Shown here: positions 763 to 17,697 of the stretch, in pieces
How the letters are laid out: each line of letters starts with the position of its first letter
Position numbering within the stretch: position 1 is the first letter of the stretch
Source: a virus
Length of the DNA: 28,730 bases
Strand: one strand, 5' to 3'
Virus record (IMG/VR): IMGVR_UViG_3300042565_001315
Location: 1-28,730 of that record
The notes under the pieces: generated by a model
Seen by the model: only the letters and a program-made list of their open reading frames with translations
Databases searched by the model: none
Told to the model about the DNA's origin: nothing
Position numbers and translations under genes: made by a program

Positions 763-1026
763 TTACCACTTGACCTTGTTTGCCCAATACGCTGCGCTCA
801 TTTTGCCCTTGGCGATGTTGCTCGCGTGCCTAGCCTTGAATGCTTCATTGCGCTTGCTGCCATCTGGGGAACCTGAAACACCTTGCTGGCCGAAGCGAAT
901 GGTCTTAACCTGATCCCCAGACTTCGCCACCACAACGTGGCTTTTGGTTGGATGCGATGGCGTGCGCTTGGGCTTGTTGTAGCCCTCGACGCCGACGCGA
1001 GCCAAGCGGGTGTCTTTAGTTGCCAT
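763..1026 (-). CDS. Small basic conserved phage protein (87 aa)
   Basis: This 87-residue basic protein has a core KSHVVVAK followed by IRFGQQG, then KARHASNIAKGKMSAAYWANKVKW at the C-terminus. I recognise this pattern from short conserved proteins in head/tail regions of many podoviruses, but no function is established. Its ATG overlaps the upstream stop codon by one base (TAATG), so translation is probably coupled. The position between the gp4-like and gp10-like genes suggests a virion or assembly role, which is inference only. Confidence 0.75.
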   Translation of the reverse strand: MATKDTRLARVGVEGYNKPKRTPSHPTKSHVVVAKSGDQVKTIRFGQQGVSGSPDGSKRNEAFKARHASNIAKGKMSAAYWANKVKW

Positions 1027-1481
1027 TAGGCGACCCGATACCAGCTATTTGTTGCTTGGTAATATCGAACGGTAAAAAAAGCGTTTGCCGCCAAAGTAGT
1101 CGGTGCGCCGAAGGCTGCTGCTGCGCCGTTTAGGGCCAGCGTGAAGCTGGTGATGATCTGAGTGGTAGTAACCAGCACTTGGGTGCCATCGGGCACGCCA
1201 GTGTTCAAGGGAAGCGTGATCGTTCCCGTAGCCAAAGTGCCGGCAGGCTGGATCAGCATCCATTGCTGCTCGGTGGTTGGCGTCGGCACCGTGATGTTAA
1301 ATCCAGTTCCAGGCGTATACAGATTCGTAGCCACCGTTGGGGCTGCAAACGTCTGCTGGAAATATTGCAGCAGTTGCGTGACCGATACCCTGCGTGCATC
1401 ACCATTGTTGGGCACGTAAACTGGGATCTGATCGCCGCCCGAAAGCTGAGAAAGTGGTGAGAGTTGATTGATCGTAGGCAT
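1026..1481 (-). CDS. Putative virion protein with adaptor-like N-terminus (151 aa)
   Basis: The N-terminal 40 residues (INQLSPLSQLSGGDQIPVY, then RRVSVTQLLQYF) form a short motif often seen at the start of phage fibre or head-decoration proteins. The rest is Thr/Ala/Gly-rich and beta-prone, ending FTVRYYQATNSWYRVA. A GAGGAA ribosome site precedes ATG 1481. The same N-terminal plan recurs in the fibre-type protein at 24855-25502, so this may be an accessory fibre or decoration protein. Its exact place in the particle cannot be read from the sequence. Confidence 0.7.
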   Translation of the reverse strand: MPTINQLSPLSQLSGGDQIPVYVPNNGDARRVSVTQLLQYFQQTFAAPTVATNLYTPGTGFNITVPTPTTEQQWMLIQPAGTLATGTITLPLNTGVPDGTQVLVTTTQIITSFTLALNGAAAAFGAPTTLAANAFFTVRYYQATNSWYRVA

Positions 1482-1489
1482 GCTGTTCC

Positions 1490-1972
1490 TCAGTAGTATT
1501 CGATGGGGCCATCGCCACCTGCCAAGACTGGGTTAGCTGGGGGGCGGATAAATGGATTGTCATAGACGCGCCAGGGCTTATTACCTGCGCCCGCTGGCAT
1601 GGTGCTGGGCAGTTGCTGCTCCATCGGCATAGCTGCGATTGATAGGAGCGTGTTATAGGACTCTTTAGCCGTGGCTTTGGTGTCAGGCATCACCTGTTTG
1701 CCGTAACTCGGGGCTAGTTTGATGGCCAGGTTGGTGTAGATGGCCTCGTTTGAGCTGTCTGGCACGTTAGTCTGCTCGTCCAGATCGCTATCTTGGGGGC
1801 TGGATGGCAGCGGGTAAGCCAGCCGGATGCCCAGAGCATTCCAGGCAGCCATCATGGTATCAAGCCTGCGCAGAGCTGATTGCATTTGCTCTGGGCCAAG
1901 ATCGAATGCATAGGAGGCCAAGCCGATCTCGTCGAAAGCCTGCTCGATGAATTGGCGCTTGGTCCATCCCAT
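1490..1972 (-). CDS. P22 gp4-like tail accessory factor
   Basis: This protein has 160 residues, close to the 166 of P22 gp4. The N-terminus reads WTKRQFIEQAFDEIGLA, followed by LRRLDTMMAAWNALGIRLAY; the middle has NEAIYTNLAIKLAPSYGK, features of the gp4 head-completion family. In P22, gp4 forms a 12-subunit ring that extends the portal and accepts gp10. P22 gp4 was also reported to have peptidoglycan-hydrolysing activity; I see no catalytic motif to confirm that here. The gene lies upstream of the gp10-like gene, as expected. Confidence 0.85.
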   Translation of the reverse strand: MGWTKRQFIEQAFDEIGLASYAFDLGPEQMQSALRRLDTMMAAWNALGIRLAYPLPSSPQDSDLDEQTNVPDSSNEAIYTNLAIKLAPSYGKQVMPDTKATAKESYNTLLSIAAMPMEQQLPSTMPAGAGNKPWRVYDNPFIRPPANPVLAGGDGPIEYY

Positions 1973-1973
1973 G

Positions 1974-2261
1974 TCATTCTCCTAGTTTGTCTTGGATCAA
2001 TTGTCCCAGCTTTTTGTCCTTTGTGCGACCATCAAATTTGATTCCAAGCTCTGTGGCCTTGGCCTCTAGTTCTTCGCGAGTTGGGGGTGCATCGTCTTGC
2101 GGTTCAGCTTGTGCCTCAATGGCATCAATGGGCGATGGGTAGTATTGCTTGATCGCTTTGCGCTCAAGTGCCGCAGTCTTTTTAGACTTGCGCTTTTGCA
2201 GGCGCAACTCTTTCCAAGCGGGGAGAGTTTTGTCTTTGATGATTGCGGCTGACCTAATCAT
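1974..2261 (-). CDS. HeH/LEM-like domain protein (95 aa)
   Basis: The N-terminal 45 residues are strongly basic (KELRLQKRKSKK). A Pro/Asp/Glu-rich linker follows, and the C-terminal 35 residues (TREELEAKATELGIKFDGRT then LGQLIQDKL) look like a HeH/LEM-type helix-extended-loop-helix domain. Such domains occur in small proteins and domains of phage head operons and in transcription terminator Rho; their phage role is not settled. The start overlaps the upstream stop as ATGA, and its own stop is 1 nt before the gp4-like start, so it sits inside the late head operon. Confidence 0.7.
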   Translation of the reverse strand: MIRSAAIIKDKTLPAWKELRLQKRKSKKTAALERKAIKQYYPSPIDAIEAQAEPQDDAPPTREELEAKATELGIKFDGRTKDKKLGQLIQDKLGE

Positions 2262-2410
2262 TTCTTAGCTTTCTTCGCTGTTTTGGCAGACGCCACAAAG
2301 TCAGCCTTTGTAGGTGCGCCTTTGGTGCCAGGCTTACGCATTTTCTCTTTGCTACCGGCTTCAATACGAGCACGTTTAGCTGCAATATTGGCATAAAGTC
2401 CAGGTTTCAT
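2258..2410 (-). CDS. Short basic conserved phage protein (50 aa)
   Basis: A 50-residue protein starting MKPGLYANIAAKRARIEAGS, with KMRKPGTKGAPT in the middle and a Lys-rich end. This form, a short basic protein with KPG repeats, is widespread in phage structural operons and has no known function. It overlaps both neighbours by ATGA junctions (start with the stop of the upstream gene, stop with the start of the downstream gene), which is strong evidence that it is translated. DNA binding or head assembly is possible because of the high charge, but this is unproven. Confidence 0.75.
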   Translation of the reverse strand: MKPGLYANIAAKRARIEAGSKEKMRKPGTKGAPTKADFVASAKTAKKAKK

Positions 2411-2577
2411 TTCATGGCCTTTTTAGGTGCTTTGCTTGGCTTGCCAGCTTTCATTGCGGCCTTGCGTGCAGTGGACAGTGCCACGGCTACGGCTTGTTTC
2501 TGCGGCATACCAGATTTCATTTCCTTGGAAATGTTTTTGCTGATGGATTTCTGCGAGTAACCTTTGGTCAGTGGCAT
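2407..2577 (-). CDS. Small basic protein, DUF6496-like (56 aa)
   Basis: The protein begins MPLTKGYSQKSISKNISKEM and contains MPQKQAVAVALSTARKAA and a Lys/Pro/Ala tail. This is the pattern of a family of small phage and bacterial proteins (DUF6496-like) with unknown role. I place the start at ATG 2577 because GGAG stands 6 nt before it; the in-frame ATG at 2589 would put that ribosome site inside the coding region. The stop overlaps the next gene as ATGA. It is the first gene after the hairpin at 2595-2620. Confidence 0.7.
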   Translation of the reverse strand: MPLTKGYSQKSISKNISKEMKSGMPQKQAVAVALSTARKAAMKAGKPSKAPKKAMK

Positions 2578-2591
2578 ATCAATCTCCATGG

Positions 2592-2623
2592 AAAACAGGC
2601 CGACATCTCTGCCGGCCTGTCTT
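2592..2623 (-). terminator. Intrinsic terminator after the head-decoration gene
   Basis: A 10-bp stem (2595-2604 with 2611-2620, one G-U pair, 6-nt loop) is followed on the minus strand by TTTT. It lies 8 nt after the stop of the gene ending at 2628 and before the small basic genes, so it may lower expression of the tail-accessory genes relative to coat and decoration proteins. The T tract is short, so termination may be partial. Confidence 0.6.
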
Positions 2624-2627
2624 AGTT

Positions 2628-3242
2628 TTAGCCGCCGATGCGGTAGACGATGAAGGTATCTGCCGCAGTCTTGCGAACACGGAAGCGTGCAGCCGCACCA
2701 GACGTGGCCGCCGTTGCAGCAGAGCCAACGATGGTCACGTTTGTATTGACCGTCAGGGTCAGAGCAAATGCAGCCAAAGTAATGACGGTGAAGTCAAACG
2801 AATCGCCGGTTGCCCACTCAGTTGCCAGGTCAAGGTTTGCACCAGTTGGCAGTTGAATGTTACGGCTTGCCGTAGGCGTTGCGGTGATGATGCCGGTCAA
2901 CAATTCAGCGGCTGTGGCGATCATCGAACCACCATCAGCAATGTTGGCTGGCGCGCCCTGGGGCTGCCAGTTGCCGTTGTTGCTGATGTCAGGAGCAACG
3001 CCCACCGAGTAGTAAGCGCCCGATGCACCGGCCTGAATGGTCACGATAGTGGCATTGGTGAATGCGCCTGACACATAGGTGGTGTTCTCGACAACAGTCA
3101 GCAGGTCTTGCGAATCAGGGAAATTGGGGAAACCAACTTCCTGAAACACGCTTGCTGGTGAGAAGGCCTGAACGGCGATTTTTTCGCCAGCGGGCACAGT
3201 GACAACGGCCGTGCCTTGGGTAAAGATTACTTGATAGCTCAT
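2628..3242 (-). CDS. Putative head decoration or head-fibre protein (204 aa)
   Basis: This 204-residue protein follows the coat gene by 11 nt. It is almost free of charged clusters and rich in Ala, Thr, Val and Gly. Residues about 1-90 look like one beta domain; the C-terminal 100 residues (IATAAELLTGIITATPTASR to RVRKTAADTFIVYRIGG) resemble a repeated beta module seen in phage capsid-associated and fibre proteins. The position directly behind the coat gene supports a decoration or head-fibre role. The exact family is not recognised. A hairpin terminator follows. Confidence 0.65.
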   Translation of the reverse strand: MSYQVIFTQGTAVVTVPAGEKIAVQAFSPASVFQEVGFPNFPDSQDLLTVVENTTYVSGAFTNATIVTIQAGASGAYYSVGVAPDISNNGNWQPQGAPANIADGGSMIATAAELLTGIITATPTASRNIQLPTGANLDLATEWATGDSFDFTVITLAAFALTLTVNTNVTIVGSAATAATSGAAARFRVRKTAADTFIVYRIGG

Positions 3243-3253
3243 GATTTAACTCC

Positions 3254-4540
3254 TTATGCCTGACCGAACAGCAAGATACCAGACATTTCTGGCTGCTTAT
3301 TGACAACACCAAACAAGGTATCAAGACGATACTTGGTTTTCATGGTGTCGACATCGTATTGCTTCTGCATGACAAGCTCGATGCCCTGATCTGTAGATGC
3401 ACGCATCACTGCGACACCAGCATCAGACGGGACAGCGTAACGGCCAGGCAGAATCTCCAGCGCATCTTTCTGCCAGAAGCAGTTAATAGGCGCAGCAGCC
3501 ACGTTCAGGCGCGTGATGGTGCGGCCAGCGGCTGGGGTAACGATGACGTTTTGATATTGCAACTCAGCGTCACTTCCACCCTGGGCCGAGATAATCGGGG
3601 GAGTAATGACGCAGGTCGTAGCATTAATCACCTGAACAACGCGGAAGGTTTTGTTGAAACCCGTGCCTTGTTTGGTGATGTGATGCACAGCCTCAACGCC
3701 TTGAATCTGGATCGGCGTACCGGCAGGCAGGTCAGTGGTGCTAGAGACCGTGATGGTCTGGAAGCGATTGTCCACGTTCTGAGTTTCACCCGTAGCGGCA
3801 GTCTGGGTTGCTTGCGGAACATAGTAGTTGCCGGCAGCAGCCAAGGTGCTCATCGTCGGGTCTGAACCGGTGCGAGCCGCGATGCGGTTTGCATAGTCCA
3901 GCTTGTAGGTCTCGAATCCTGCAACCATACCAACGAAAGAACGCTCGAAAGCGGTATTCGACTTGTTTCCAGAGAAACTGCGCGATGCACCGCCACCAGT
4001 AGCGCCACCGGCAATATTGCCAGCAATGCCGTTGTAGTCGCGCGACGACAGGGCCAGGTAACGATCGAAGGCTTGCACGCCCTGCTCGTTCATGATGCTG
4101 TCGCACAGGGCCACATCATCATAGTCACCAGCCGCGGTGTTCACGGTCACGACCAGCGAGCCTTGTGCTGCGGCCACGTTCATGATGGCAATGTTGATGT
4201 CGGAGGCCAGCTTTTGCTTTGCAGCATCACCCAGACGACCCTCTTGCAGCGCATCACGCAACTCAAGTGCGTCCAGAATCCACGGCACAGACTTTTGGAA
4301 GCCGAGCGTGGCAGGGACGGTGAGCTGAGTGTAGGCAGTAAAGTTGCCGGTCTGGTCCATGCCGTCATAGCTTTGGGCGATGTAGGGCTGGGGACGATAA
4401 ATCACGTTATTGGTGCGCTCCATCATCGTGCCGTCGGTGTTGTAGACCGAGACATTGCGGGACAACACCAGAGCATCGTTAAAGCCTTCGAGGATGTCCT
4501 CGAACGCAACGCGCTCTTCTTTTGAAAAACTATTAGCCAT
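3254..4540 (-). CDS. Major capsid protein, P22 gp5 family
   Basis: The protein has 428 residues, matching the 430 of P22 coat. Around residues 90-130 (LELRDALQEGRL, KQKLASDINIAIMNVAAAQGSLVV) it aligns by eye with the P22 coat segment of the HK97 fold core, and the middle contains a Gly-rich insertion (GGATGGGASRS). A good ribosome site (GAAAGGAA) precedes ATG 4540, fitting very high expression. It follows the scaffold gene by 20 nt. The scaffold, portal and terminase order is that of P22-like phages. Confidence 0.9.
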   Translation of the reverse strand: MANSFSKEERVAFEDILEGFNDALVLSRNVSVYNTDGTMMERTNNVIYRPQPYIAQSYDGMDQTGNFTAYTQLTVPATLGFQKSVPWILDALELRDALQEGRLGDAAKQKLASDINIAIMNVAAAQGSLVVTVNTAAGDYDDVALCDSIMNEQGVQAFDRYLALSSRDYNGIAGNIAGGATGGGASRSFSGNKSNTAFERSFVGMVAGFETYKLDYANRIAARTGSDPTMSTLAAAGNYYVPQATQTAATGETQNVDNRFQTITVSSTTDLPAGTPIQIQGVEAVHHITKQGTGFNKTFRVVQVINATTCVITPPIISAQGGSDAELQYQNVIVTPAAGRTITRLNVAAAPINCFWQKDALEILPGRYAVPSDAGVAVMRASTDQGIELVMQKQYDVDTMKTKYRLDTLFGVVNKQPEMSGILLFGQA

Positions 4541-13104: not shown

Positions 13105-13585
13105 TGCTTTTCCTCCATGTAACTCTGTTGATGACATAAGCCCAGGCAGCACCGCCTACCACCTTTGCCAGAAACTGCATCGCAACAATGTGCGGCATCA
13201 AGACGCCGAATGCGATTGTCGGAAACACCAAAGAGTCCACAGCCGCTCCCGCCACATTGCTGACGTTCGCTCTCTTTAGCCAAGTACCCGGAATCTTTGC
13301 GAATACAGTCCAGTCTACGATTGCAGCGGCAGTAAACGCAGCAGCAGATGCCACCGCAATCATCCCGGCGGCAGGGTTGAGCATAAAGGTCAACAGACCA
13401 GTTGCACCAATCAGTGATCCCATCTGCCACATCTTGAGCCTGACATGCAGCCAGTCTCGAAGTGCTAAGTCTAGGCCGATCAGGAAAAAAGCGTTTATGG
13501 GCGTTATGGCAGGCCCGAACTGGGCAACCAAAAGATTGGCCACAGTCATTGCAACTGCATAAATTGCGATTGCTAGGTAAAGCAT
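13097..13585 (-). CDS. YhhQ/VUT-family queuosine-precursor transporter
   Basis: 162 residues, starting at ATG 13585 with GGAG 5 nt upstream. It is very hydrophobic with about six membrane segments. VANLLVAQFGPAITPINAF and LIGLDLALRDWL near the N-terminus, a FTAAAIVDW segment in the middle and SNVAGAAVDSLVF further on are signatures of the VUT_1 (YhhQ) family, which takes up 7-deazaguanine precursors (preQ0/preQ1). It is shorter than E. coli YhhQ (221 aa), as phage versions often are. It overlaps the DpdA-like gene by 13 bp, so the two are probably co-translated. Confidence 0.82.
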   Translation of the reverse strand: MLYLAIAIYAVAMTVANLLVAQFGPAITPINAFFLIGLDLALRDWLHVRLKMWQMGSLIGATGLLTFMLNPAAGMIAVASAAAFTAAAIVDWTVFAKIPGTWLKRANVSNVAGAAVDSLVFPTIAFGVLMPHIVAMQFLAKVVGGAAWAYVINRVTWRKSNV

Positions 13586-14256
13586 AAAGTCTCCTGTGTT
13601 GGGATGTTTTTCCATTTGGTGGGTGGGTTTGCTGCATTGATGCGCTTTGCCATGCAACCGGCGCATTCCGTTTGATAACCGTGGTTAAGTGCTACGTTGG
13701 TGCTGTCTGCGCTCGATAGTGGCCAGCGTTCGTGTCCCATGCCTAGCATCCGCAGACCATGAGTCCAGGGCAATTGAGACGATCTCTTCGACAAGGCATT
13801 AAAAGTCTCGTCCATCTTTGCAGACCACTTGGGTGATCCTACTTGCCAGTACTCTCCAGAAGATCCCAGACAAACCCTACCCCACTCGTCGCACAGCTCA
13901 AACAGGTAGTCAATGGGCAGACCCAAATGCCAGACAGGGATGCCTAGCGCTTTTCCATAGGGCCAAGTCTTGACCATCTTGCGCTGCGTCTCTACATCGC
14001 CTCCTATCACATCAGGCACGACGGCCCAATGAGGGTGTCCAAGAATAGGCTCTAGCCACTCATAAAAGCCGTGCAAGTCAAAGTCAACCTTGCGGGTGAA
14101 GCAGCTGAAAGCGCCGTTGTCTAGCATCAGAGACTGGCCGATTTGCAAACAGGTTTTCAAGTTGTCTGGCCTAAAATAAGAAATGCAGAAGTGCTGCCCT
14201 GCCATGCTCATAAGAGCGTGTTTTGGTGTTATCGGTGTGCCGTGATAGTGGATCAT
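13573..14256 (-). CDS. DpdA-like DNA transglycosylase (TGT superfamily)
   Basis: 227 residues. Motifs in order: LDNGAF at 45-50 (the position of the TGT catalytic Asp motif), VPDVIGG at 80-86, VWHLGLP at 108-114, CLGSSGEY at 129-136, HGLRMLG at 166-172 and SADST at 182-186. I recognise the pattern of short phage DpdA-like proteins of the TGT fold, which exchange guanine in DNA for a 7-deazaguanine. A CxxC (198-201) may be left over from the TGT zinc site. It is shorter than bacterial DpdA (about 400 aa or more). Overlap with a YhhQ-type transporter strongly supports the reading. No QueC/D/E or FolE is in the window. Confidence 0.72.
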   Translation of the reverse strand: MIHYHGTPITPKHALMSMAGQHFCISYFRPDNLKTCLQIGQSLMLDNGAFSCFTRKVDFDLHGFYEWLEPILGHPHWAVVPDVIGGDVETQRKMVKTWPYGKALGIPVWHLGLPIDYLFELCDEWGRVCLGSSGEYWQVGSPKWSAKMDETFNALSKRSSQLPWTHGLRMLGMGHERWPLSSADSTNVALNHGYQTECAGCMAKRINAANPPTKWKNIPTQETLCFT

Positions 14257-14543
14257 CTAAATGTCTTTAACATGATTCATAAACACCATAATTCATATGG
14301 TTCACCCAAAAGACCCCCCTACCCCACAAAGTGTGAGGAAGGACGAGTTAGGTTCACCCCCCATTGAAGGGATCGTCATGCTACTGATTGGATACAGTAC
14401 GCCCCCGGCTTGACGATTCGACCAGCCGCACGGATTGTTCGGGAACTGCCCCCTAGCCTTACGGCATACCGTGTCGCGGTTTCCTTCCGAGCAGCCCCAC
14501 TTGCGGCCCCTGCTTTCGTGCGGAGTACGGTCGCGTAGAAAAC
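14257..14543. other. Gene-free leader region with hairpins
   Basis: No credible protein gene. A nested hairpin has outer stem ATCGTC/GACGAT (14372-14377 with 14412-14417) and inner stem TACTG/CAGTA (14382-14386 with 14395-14399). A second one is ACGG-cata-CCGT (14461-14472). The part may be the 5' leader of the DpdA operon or an extension of the structured RNA region to its right. Confidence 0.4.
14271..14297 (-). promoter_or_regulatory. Direct repeat upstream of the DpdA-like gene, possible operator
   Basis: CATGATTCATA (14271-14281) and CATAATTCATA (14287-14297) are direct repeats with 16-bp spacing, 15 bp before the start codon at 14256. Spacing of about one and a half helical turns fits two protein contacts. 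It may control the DpdA operon. No clear -10/-35 pair is seen here. Confidence 0.4.
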
Positions 14544-14618
14544 AAAAAAGCCGGTTACTGCTGCCCTCGGTGGAAACCCTTTGGATTTGAACCAAGGGCG
14601 AGAGCATGAGTAACCGGC
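14544..14618 (-). terminator. Long inverted repeat with T run
   Basis: On the minus strand a perfect 10-bp stem (14618-14609 with 14559-14550, GCCGGTTACT/AGTAACCGGC) is followed at once by TTTTTT (14549-14544). An inner GCCCT/AGGGC pair can extend it. The large loop contains a tRNA-like segment. It can end a minus-strand transcript coming from the structured region. Confidence 0.6.
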
Positions 14619-14637
14619 CTTCACTGTCGCTTTCCAC
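14570..14637 (-). ncRNA. tRNA-like small RNA segment
   Basis: On the minus strand a 7-bp closing stem (GTGGAAA 14637-14631 with TTTCCAC 14576-14570) encloses 54 nt that include a T-arm-like hairpin with GGTTCAAATCC. At 68 nt it is shorter than a tRNA, the D and anticodon arms cannot be drawn well, and a 3-nt gap separates T-arm and acceptor, so it is not a normal tRNA gene. The closing stem competes with the 10-bp terminator stem. It may be a decayed tRNA, an attachment-site remnant or part of a larger RNA. Confidence 0.35.
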
Positions 14638-14652
14638 GGCAACGGGATGAAG

Positions 14653-14679
14653 TTTCTATCAAATTTTGGGTCTTGTCAA
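14653..14679 (-). promoter_or_regulatory. Possible promoter for the tRNA-like RNA
   Basis: A consensus -35 TTGACA (14679-14674) is followed after 15 nt by TAGAAA (14658-14653) on the minus strand. Spacing is short. The predicted start would be just before the tRNA-like segment, giving a transcript of about 100 nt up to the T run at 14544. Confidence 0.4.
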
Positions 14680-14823
14680 GCCCCTACGAAAAAAATTGTT
14701 GGTGGCAGGCGCTGATCTCCTGCTTTGCGCTGCTCATTTCCGGGTCTGGATTTAAGGGCCACGATGCGCAATAAGAGTGCCCACCTCCTAAGAGGACCAT
14801 TTGTGCGCATCAGCCTGCGCATT

Positions 14824-14901
14824 CACCAACACGGCTGGGGACTCGTCGTGCGTCCTTCGATTCGTGGCGACACCGGCCACATCCCCATGCGTGTTGGTTG
14901 T
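14824..14901. repeat. Duplicated helix element, copy 1
   Basis: Arms 14826-14841 and 14882-14897 pair as 8 bp, a 2x2 internal loop (GC opposite TG), then 6 bp. Between them GTGGC/GCCAC forms an inner hairpin. The left arm shares 20 identical bases with 15048-15067, and the right arm differs by one base from 15133-15151 over 19 bases. Confidence 0.75.
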
Positions 14902-15047
14902 CGGCAGACCACCCCTCTCATTTGGTCACATTTCGCCCCGAATACGTCAGGGTTAGGGGTACGTCACTTGGTCACTACTTGGGGCGGGCCAACCGCTCGA
15001 ATTTCCCTAAGTCACCGTATGCCTACGGTGCCGTTCATGATTGCTGA

Positions 15048-15151
15048 CACCAACACGGCTGGGGACTGGTGGGCATTCCTGTATGGGCGGGCCAGTGGTA
15101 TGTACCCGCTTGGACTTCCCTGACTAGCCAGCCCCCATGCGTGTAGGTTGT
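15048..15151. repeat. Duplicated helix element, copy 2
   Basis: Arms 15050-15069 and 15128-15147 pair as 8 bp (one mismatch), the same GC/TG internal loop, then 10 bp (one A-C on plus, G-U on minus). The arms are conserved with copy 1, while the material between them is not, which points to a repeated RNA building block instead of simple duplication. Confidence 0.75.
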
Positions 15152-15292
15152 TGGTACTTGCAGCGTCTGGTCCGGCTCACGCGGGCTTGCGCCCGGCTTC
15201 GTCCACAGAATTCGCTTTCCCAACAAGTCTGAGGCCAACGTACTACCCTACTCGCGCTTGCGCTTTCAGAGCTTCGACTGGCCCCAGGCTTG

Positions 15293-15463
15293 TTAGTCCT
15301 CTTTTTCGAGGTTAGCAAACCACTCTGGCTTGATGCACCGCAACTGCCACAGCCTGCCCTGTGGGATGGTCTGCCACTGATGCACCGCACCCCTGCTGAT
15401 GCCCAGTAGCCGGGCTAACCGAGCCTGGGAGCCTGCAAGAATGATCGCCTCGTATTTCGTCAT
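15293..15463 (-). CDS. Cro-like repressor (56 aa)
   Basis: A 56-residue protein (MTKYEAIILAGSQARLARLL, GISRGAVHQWQTIPQGRLWQ, then IKPEWFANLEKED). Residues 12-31 form a helix-turn-helix of the Cro/YdaS type, and the length is that of small Cro proteins. It sits at the centre of a divergent control region. There is no ribosome site: a -10-like TAGAAT ends 6 nt before the ATG, so the mRNA may be leaderless, like λ cI from its maintenance promoter. It probably binds the TTTAGTG-type sites on its own promoter and the dyads before the plus-strand operons. Confidence 0.82.
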   Translation of the reverse strand: MTKYEAIILAGSQARLARLLGISRGAVHQWQTIPQGRLWQLRCIKPEWFANLEKED

Positions 15464-15469
15464 GGGTGC

Positions 15470-15497
15470 ATTCTAGATCAAAGTCAAGTTTAGTGAA
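15470..15497 (-). promoter_or_regulatory. Promoter of the Cro-like gene, probably leaderless
   Basis: TTCACT (15497-15492), 16 nt, TAGAAT (15475-15470). The start point would fall at or next to the ATG at 15463. A TTTAGTG half-site (15489-15495) overlaps the -35, fitting autorepression. Confidence 0.5.
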
Positions 15498-15510
15498 CAT
15501 TGGGGTTTTC

Positions 15511-15543
15511 CCTAGTGTGCAAGTGTTTAGGTGGCTGTACAGT
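15511..15543 (+). promoter_or_regulatory. Promoter/operator module, copy B
   Basis: CCTAGTG (15511-15517), the dyad GTTTAG-GTGG-CTGTAC (15525-15540) and a -10-like TACAGT (15538-15543). A further TTTAGTG lies at 15489-15495. It precedes the long plus-strand operon and adjoins the Cro-like gene promoter. Confidence 0.55.
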
Positions 15544-15552
15544 CTACCCATG

Positions 15553-15897: not shown

Positions 15898-16196
15898 AAC
15901 ACACACCTGGGCCTTGGGAGATCGTGCAGTCAGACCACGGCATAGTAGTTCGCACCGAGTCGCCAAAAAAAACAAGGTACGGCGCAAGTCGTTACGCCGC
16001 TATCGGCGGTTTTGAACGCAGCGACCCGCAGCAGCTTGCAGAAGCACTAGCAAATGCCCGCTTGATCGCCGCCGCGCCTGAGTTGCTGGAGGCGCTGCAA
16101 ATTTTGTTTGAACGCGCCAACCGTAACAGCATCGACCCGTTCGCTCTGCAACAAGCAGTTGCCGCCATCGTTAAAGCAACAGGAAAAACCAAATGA
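15894..16196 (+). CDS. Conserved phage protein of the MKHTPGPW type (100 aa)
   Basis: Starts MKHTPGPWEIVQSDHGIVV and has NARLIAAAPELLEALQ in the middle. Both motifs are very common together in accessory proteins of siphoviruses and podoviruses of Proteobacteria. Function unknown. The C-terminal tail (AAIVKATGKTK) is shared, also at DNA level, with the next protein. ATGA overlaps join it to both neighbours. Confidence 0.7.
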   Translation: MKHTPGPWEIVQSDHGIVVRTESPKKTRYGASRYAAIGGFERSDPQQLAEALANARLIAAAPELLEALQILFERANRNSIDPFALQQAVAAIVKATGKTK

Positions 16197-16423
16197 GCCA
16201 ACAAACCGAAGCCCAGCGGCTGGCTGATGCGTTGGATACGTTCAGCAACCCTTGGGACAAACAAGCGGCAGCCGAACTGCGCCGCCTGGAATCAATGAAC
16301 GCGCAACTGCTGGAGGCGCTGAAATATGTGCTGGAAGACGATGGCCTTCTCCCCCGCGCCACCGCCGAAACCCGAGCAGTTGTTCGCGCTGCCATCGTTA
16401 AAGCAACAGGAGAAGCGAAATGA
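16193..16423 (+). CDS. Small accessory protein with AELRRL/LLEAL motif (76 aa)
   Basis: EAQRLADALDTF, AAAELRRLESMNAQLLEALK and the tail AAIVKATGEAK. This is a common accessory-gene form in phages: a helical pair with conserved AELRRL and LLEALK. Function unknown. It shares its last 12 codons almost exactly with the preceding gene, which suggests tail exchange or duplication. Confidence 0.65.
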   Translation: MSQQTEAQRLADALDTFSNPWDKQAAAELRRLESMNAQLLEALKYVLEDDGLLPRATAETRAVVRAAIVKATGEAK

Positions 16424-17122: not shown

Positions 17123-17697
17123 GCATCACCGCAATGAAAAAGGCCCGTGAGGGGCTGAAAGCGGCGCGCCACGGACACTGCGACCATGCGTGGGCCGATG
17201 AGGCCATTGCCGACCTCAGCGCCGCCATCGAGGCGGCTGAGAAGCAGGAGGCGGCAGAGAGATACATACACGAATACCGCAGCAAACCGCACCCTGGTGA
17301 TTTCGGCATACCGAGAGGTCACTGGTGGCAGGCAAAGCAATATGCAGACGTTTTGTACACCACCCCACCCGCAGCACAGCCAGCACAGCCAGCACAGCAG
17401 GAGCCGGTAGCGTGGGCCGTGTTTGAGGGGCGAAACGCGCATGACCTGTACCTACCTCAAGAGTACGACGAGGCTCTGAAGATGGCGGGATACAAAGGCG
17501 ATCACGCTGAAGTTAAGCCACTCTACACCACCCCACCCGCAGCACAGCAAGCGCCGCTGACGGATGAGCAGCGCCAAGAACTTATGAGCAAGGCTTGGAA
17601 TAAGTGGTTGAGCGGAAAAGATGATGGGCGTCTGTTTGCTTGGTATTTTTCATTTGAAGTTGAAGCCACCCACGGCATCACAGGAGAGAAGACATGA
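17119..17697 (+). CDS. Modular accessory protein with LYTTPPAAQ repeats (192 aa)
   Basis: Residues 1-60 are helical (REGLKAARHGHCDHAWADEA). LYTTPPAAQ occurs twice, at about residues 79-87 and 135-143, flanking the domain EPVAWAVFEGRNAHDLYLPQ. At DNA level a 25-base sequence is repeated exactly at 17356-17380 and 17524-17548. The C-terminal domain has DEQRQELMSKAWNKW. The EPVAW and LYTTPPA modules are frequent in phage accessory proteins and act as swap points between short domains. Function unknown. Confidence 0.65.
   Translation: MSITAMKKAREGLKAARHGHCDHAWADEAIADLSAAIEAAEKQEAAERYIHEYRSKPHPGDFGIPRGHWWQAKQYADVLYTTPPAAQPAQPAQQEPVAWAVFEGRNAHDLYLPQEYDEALKMAGYKGDHAEVKPLYTTPPAAQQAPLTDEQRQELMSKAWNKWLSGKDDGRLFAWYFSFEVEATHGITGEKT
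17356..17398 (+). repeat. Direct repeat and 9-base tandem repeat inside the modular gene
   Basis: The 25-base unit at 17356-17380 recurs exactly at 17524-17548, in frame (168 bp, 56 codons apart). Within the first unit CAGCACAGC is repeated three times in tandem (17372-17398). Recombination between the units would remove or add the 56-residue module without a frameshift. Confidence 0.85.

Follow-up and report, generated by a model that had tools for sequence, protein, structure and literature searches.

What is encoded at positions 14345-15292 of the window, the whole stretch of 28,730 nucleotides analysed here (IMG/VR virus record IMGVR_UViG_3300042565_001315), whose coordinates are used unless another locus is named? 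A sequence-only reading had described this region as gene-free, and no credible gene is indeed present there; with a single exception (E=0.031), the ORFs inside it have no PHROG match. The fold energy of the region is unremarkable (z = -1.9 on the minus strand and -1.6 on the plus strand), which is weak evidence by itself, and homologues were therefore used to decide whether the DNA encodes structured RNA. The answer is an array, on the minus strand, in which at least three structured RNA modules are conserved; they are named 1, 2 and 5 (the last is a working label, as the window has no module 3 or 4). These conserved units are 100-190 nt long and also occur singly, reordered or grafted into one another. 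The sequence-only reading had proposed a large structured RNA; structure, covarying homologues and the minus strand hold up, whereas a single RNA of 0.6-1 kb does not.

That reading had also called for homologues to be collected and examined for compensatory changes. When this was done, modules 1, 2 and 5 were all found to covary, with main measures exceeding all 500 shuffles; these covariation counts are uncorrected for kinship, and kinship-corrected sliding controls lie far below the observed values for the three modules. The modules are structured RNA beyond chance because covariance models built without the window match it and because compensatory changes exceed those of the shuffles.

Module 1 (14906..15048, minus strand) was traced through a single phage. 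A blastn search with the region matched only Klebsiella phage MY01 (Schitoviridae), at 74.5% over 100 bases of unannotated DNA; the matching element immediately precedes a cluster of 11 tRNAs encoded on its own strand. With the MY01 element as query, 29 records were matched at 80% coverage or more, MY01 included; they belong to Pylasvirus, Ithacavirus and Triduovirus (Schitoviridae), where the module is upstream of tRNA clusters, and to Taipeivirus and relatives (Ackermannviridae), where it is found in gene-poor, tRNA-flanked regions. In Taipeivirus, for instance, it falls within a gap of ~3.2 kb annotated with nothing or with tiny ORFs. IMG/VR scans with patterns fixing some conserved strings, as opposed to the blastn that gave the cultured phages, added loci L004, L005, L018, L069 and L003, the last of which comes from the virus of the window itself (99.98% over 11.8 kb). 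No module 1 was found in E. coli genomes or among 100 further loci (pattern matches and module 2 loci), and Prevotella locus L020 was a chance pattern match within an apparent coding region.

The covariance model R1, built from an alignment (A4) of 11 Schitoviridae and Ackermannviridae sequences with the window left out, matches the window with 88 bits and an E-value of 1.3e-21, and other held-out module 1 loci at 1e-19 or better; E-values from this and the other covariance models are rough, as calibration was shortened. The fold comprises helices Pa, P2 (loop GGCA), P3, P5 and P6 and a pseudoknot, P4, within a closing helix, P1, whose arms lie at about 15065-15049 and 14898-14882. In an alignment of 17 sequences, 97.2% of cells pair and both sides change in 21 of 32 pairs, values matched by none of 500 shuffles. 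For instance, the helix GUCA/UGAC is replaced by GUCU/AGAC in phage TR2. The pseudoknot, formed between the strand 3′ of GACGU and the P6 loop, was left out of R1; nevertheless, AU, CG and UA are all seen at one of its pairs, and its covariation score is reached by 0 of 500 shuffles. By-eye comparison with core strings of group I introns or tmRNA gave no support for either. Downstream of module 1 in L018 (2970-2900, minus strand), the sequence GGUAGAGUACCUGGUUCGAUUCCUGGGCGUCCACCA resembles a tRNA without an anticodon arm and is a candidate tRNA-like domain or attachment site.

The array is assigned to the minus strand because G-U cells exceed A-C cells in module 1 by 36 to 6 when it is read in that direction. 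In addition, the modules of relatives lie on the same strand as the adjacent tRNAs, so that the lean of the sequence-only reading to this strand is confirmed.

Module 2 (14695..14833, minus strand) is matched by R2, a model also built without the window, with 62.8 bits (approximate E=5.9e-14), and a second, weak match is found at 24283-24184 (E=0.025), inside an ORF. When window positions 14690-14840 were used as query, about 200 phage records were obtained, the best matches being split in two around a variable middle. The module has a constant frame, consisting of a closing helix, AAU, a hairpin (loop AGGCUGAU), an insert, a second hairpin (loop AGAUCAGCA) and the other arm of the closing helix, and the insert between the two hairpins is variable. 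The end of hairpin 1 is separated from the closing arm by 31-270 nt (median 93), although the longest cases may be misassigned. In the window, the closing helix is GUGUUGGUG/CACCAACA and the hairpin loops are AGGCUGAU and AGAUCAGCG, which have a six-base complementarity; the loop-loop contact counts as predicted, because the search pattern fixed loop 1. The closing helix is exchanged in a compensatory manner among relatives (UUGUGGUG/CACCACAA, GUGUUGGUG/CACCAACAA, GUGAUGGUG/CACCAUCA), with changes on both sides at eight pairs and observed values reached by none of 500 shuffles. At least 120 matches were obtained in an IMG/VR scan, and carriers include HK620, EcP1, PY54, Burkholderia CSP3 and Aeromonas ST4, whose copy is near tRNAs. 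In HK620, the module lies in the Q-S interval, between the annotated qut/pR′ and the terminator tQ.

Do these modules belong to a known RNA? No Rfam family matches the window, and the GOLLD and ROOL models give no match either at their gathering threshold or with the E-value relaxed to 10. The three module families are absent from Rfam 15; they are judged new from this and from searches among open-licence papers, and some of them may be described in subscription papers or preprints. The suggestion of the sequence-only reading that this is a GOLLD/ROOL-like locus was thus not upheld. GOLLD and ROOL are large structured phage RNAs that often adjoin tRNA islands (PMC12286853). The array is likewise structured phage RNA, with tRNAs nearby in some relatives and none found in the window; it differs in consisting of shuffled modules of 100-190 nt instead of one fixed large RNA. 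An unrelated but large, ornate and self-assembling RNA working in the manner of GOLLD or ROOL would fit the size of the region, the tRNA setting of relatives, the pseudoknots, the complementary loops and the clamp arms described below, which can pair across neighbours. Such an RNA is nevertheless improbable. Besides the lack of an Rfam match, the modules are found singly and reordered (module 2 comes before module 1 in Taipeivirus and after it in the window), and because of this no fixed whole is conserved.

By eye, module 2 resembles STnc100, the consensus of which appears to share the frame GGUGAAU-hairpin ... hairpin-CACC that is present in the window; the loop sequences of STnc100 differ from those of module 2. 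PasD and STnc100 are prophage sRNAs with one fold and different seeds, and PasD was recovered among RNA bound by Hfq (PMC13192938). It is located close to Q and the lysis genes, and the HK620 module 2 is in a similar position. However, the STnc100 model (RF02076) gives no match in the window, nor in 15 module 2 sources at E up to 1. Because this model fails on module 2 loci, the link to STnc100 and PasD is one of resemblance, and membership of module 2 in the STnc100 family was rejected. Likewise, R2 finds nothing where the STnc100 model matches L012, a Taipeivirus locus (MDA2066) in which 3.2 kb of gene-poor DNA (970-4180) contains, in a row, an Rfam STnc100 match (1774-1561, minus strand), a tag module, module 2 and module 1.

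The tag module is a side finding that is absent from the window. It lies upstream of module 2 in HK620 (L070, about 2850-2690, minus strand), Taipeivirus (L012, 3182-3080, minus strand) and many others; it was also seen in L072 and L089 and in 99 IMG/VR contigs. It reads GCA AAC GAx ... stop, and its 106 occurrences encode 12 distinct peptides of exactly 10 residues each, among them ANDDVVLMAA, ANDEQFLAVA, ANEEMYLAVA and ANDNTFLAVA; the SsrA tag of E. coli is ANDENYALAA. Beyond the tag comes a pseudoknot, both stems of which show compensatory changes. A tRNA-like domain was looked for in this module and not found, ARAGORN made no call where it was run, and Rfam gave only subthreshold tmRNA matches at these loci. 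Matches to the HK620 tag stretch were found in 156 of 5426 E. coli genomes, and among the matches listed it is unannotated in 15 of 15. No description of a phage tmRNA tag module was found in the searched literature, which covers only part of publications. This SsrA-like module of ten residues upstream of module 2 is what would favour the array as part of a phage tmRNA-like system for trans-translation. That role is very unlikely for the window: the likeness to tmRNA is confined to related arrays with the tag module and pseudoknot, the tag-like string GCNAAYGA was not found in the region, no tRNA-like domain was found in the window either, and a tag module is lacking at many module 2 loci.

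The third family came to light through locus L157, which showed conservation also in the part of the array that lies 3′ of the terminator hairpin. This part, module 5 (14371..14529, minus strand), is matched by the model R3, again built without the window, with 168.8 bits (approximate E=9.5e-45). It contains helices h1, h2, h3, h3b, h3c, h4 and h6 and a pseudoknot, h5. A pattern with 22 fixed bases matched at least 119 IMG/VR stretches, and in 35 distinct sequences (alignment A9) 96.6% of cells pair and both sides change at 16 pairs, the main covariation measures being above all 500 shuffles. Since the pattern fixed the 3′ strand of helix 3 and hairpin 3c, their invariant pairs are uninformative. 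By contrast, the pseudoknot AUCAUCA/UGAUGAU varies, being AUCGUCA/UGACGAU in the window, AUAUGCA/UGCAUAU or yet others elsewhere, and five of its seven pairs are compensatory. The tRNAs within 3 kb of module 5 copies (n=16) are all upstream and on the same strand.

The surroundings of the modules raise the main rival explanation, namely that they are leader elements acting in cis on the transcription or processing of their operon, through antitermination, attenuation, or the protection or maturation of linked tRNAs. The position of the HK620 module 2 between pR′/qut and tQ would be expected of such elements, and so would that of module 1 on the 5′ side of tRNA clusters. Furthermore, a terminator-like hairpin precedes 77 of 120 module 5 copies, compared with 3.3% of random positions. 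However, the genes downstream of module 5 belong to many families, which argues against control of one gene; modules differ in number and order from phage to phage; no cis role is obvious for the variable inserts; and certain copies, such as some in Taipeivirus, are more than 1.5 kb from tRNAs. Control in cis is therefore regarded as possible but rather unlikely. Put RNAs are short hairpin elements and would in this differ from the array modules, to which their likeness is one of position. It is with HK022 put RNA, a structured RNA in phage leaders (PMC9378689), that this likeness is seen. Upstream of IMG/VR copies of module 5, 35 ORFs form one family that looks RusA resolvase-like by eye, and this recalls the rus-Q interval of lambdoid phages.

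In the window itself, the array opens with a predicted hairpin, CUAACAAGCCUGGGGCC/GGCCUCAGACUUGUUGG (15220..15296, minus strand). Between modules 2 and 5 there is a putative promoter, TTGACA with a candidate -10 further downstream (14650..14679, minus strand; identified by eye), to which relatives have a promoter-like counterpart at the equivalent position, and an inverted repeat that makes a terminator-like hairpin, GGCCGGUUACU/AGUAACCGGC, followed by UUUUUU (14544..14619, minus strand). Upstream of the array, on the same strand, is an ORF of 79 amino acids (15312..15551, minus strand) that looks like a small Cro-like HTH protein by eye and by the equivalent position in L005; its label is putative because neither PHROG nor Pfam gives a match. 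Downstream is a gene (13573..14256, minus strand) that matches phrog_887 (E=1.4e-47), a relative of phage queuine tRNA-ribosyltransferase proteins, with no match in Pfam. Chance alone may not explain why a relative of tRNA-modification genes adjoins the array.

Modules may also be found inside each other. The apical hairpin of module 5 has a long insertion in 30 of 102 scored copies, and in several loci (L157, L290, L291 and L393) this insertion is a module 2 frame. At L157 (1280-1450), module 2 is grafted into the apical hairpin; two tRNAs and a number of clamp hairpins also lie at this locus. Judged by their distribution, the modules appear to be exchangeable cassettes, traded and reordered among many unrelated phages. 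Such precise grafting, together with conserved compact pseudoknots, might be expected of self-cleaving ribozymes or mobile RNA cassettes, and theta ribozymes, which lie next to viral tRNAs (PMC10879173), offer a likeness as structured RNAs in that setting. Yet no ribozyme family in Rfam matches the window and no catalytic core was recognised, which leaves this explanation with a very low probability.

Two compound helices that share a 2x2 internal loop had been pointed out in the sequence-only reading, and both were located. In the first of these X clamps, CCUACACGCAUGGGG (15147-15133) pairs with CCCCAGCCGUGUUGG (15064-15050), forming hairpin C (15050..15147, minus strand) with an insert of 68 nt; in the second, CCAACACGCAUGGGG (14897-14883) pairs with CCCCAGCCGUGUUGG (14840-14826), forming hairpin D (14826..14897, minus strand) with an insert of 42 nt. 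The CA/GC internal loop is identical in both, and the arms are also able to pair between neighbouring copies. Clamps with other inserts occur in at least nine contigs besides the window. Module 1 is bordered by their arms in both the window and L005, as is module 2 at L109, L137 and L191, and the inserts differ at each of these five loci.

Some inserts in other contigs bear T arms (L109, L180 and L094); those of L109 and L180 are 81 nt long and tRNA-like, with the T arm GGGGG-TTCGACT-CCCCC. These T arms, and a T-loop-like string, GGUUCAAAUCC, near 14590, could suggest that the region consists of degenerate tRNA genes, attachment-site remnants or a missed protein gene. This is extremely improbable, being largely refuted by the compensatory changes on the minus strand. 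In addition, the region's ORFs have no significant relatives, and no tRNA was found in the window (ARAGORN 0, Rfam none). The string near 14590 was rejected as a trace of tRNA, as L191 retains the hairpin with the string altered. Nor is tRNA-like cargo a rule in module 2: of 96 inserts, 2 have T arms, whereas random draws average 0.72 and reach this count in 50 of 300 cases, a difference that is not significant. The earlier remark that tRNA-like elements lie nearby is not confirmed within the window; in relatives, tRNAs are close to module 1 and to some copies of modules 2 and 5.

What, then, might the array do? The best overall explanation, about which confidence is evenly balanced, is that it is a minus-strand series of independently folding noncoding modules, joined by clamps, that would act in trans as stable RNAs; its structural part, taken by itself, is almost certain. 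The array would be transcribed with the surrounding operon, module 5 perhaps from its own upstream promoter, and the module RNAs would be stable and act during infection. By analogy with known prophage RNAs, that they do so as sRNAs is plausible, at a little under even confidence. Module 2 would be a scaffold in which a loop-loop contact fixes the two hairpins on their closing helix, so that an exchangeable insert is displayed for base-pairing to target RNAs, the mode of action proposed for PasD and STnc100; this is the best guess because of the constant frame and variable insert, the location in leaders and near tRNAs, and the PasD/STnc100 precedent. In modules 1 and 5, the pseudoknotted cores are invariant, which points to binding of proteins or to catalysis; these modules would be the protein-binding or otherwise active parts. 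Nevertheless, a location in leaders or ahead of tRNA clusters is equally compatible with a role in cis, which counts against action in trans. A broader and more speculative idea, to which only a rather low probability is given, is that exchangeable RNA modules (at least 1, 2 and 5, the X clamps and the tag module) form a general system common to phages, from which custom multi-domain RNAs would be assembled, some tagging or rescuing ribosomes or targeting host RNAs during infection, the array of the window being one such assembly.

Two of the three families absent from Rfam 15 are each present in more than 100 phage genomes or contigs, classical phages such as HK620 included, and their shuffling and grafting suggest an exchange of RNA domains among phages comparable to that of protein domains. 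These families also explain gene-poor regions now annotated with doubtful small ORFs, as in Taipeivirus. Since cultured phages have modules 1 and 2, function can be addressed directly by deletion, probing or pulldown. Finally, outside the array, the window has two pairs of short direct repeats of about 30 bases, one at 16161-16196 and 16388-16423 (89% identical) and the other at 17356-17384 and 17524-17552 (97% identical).
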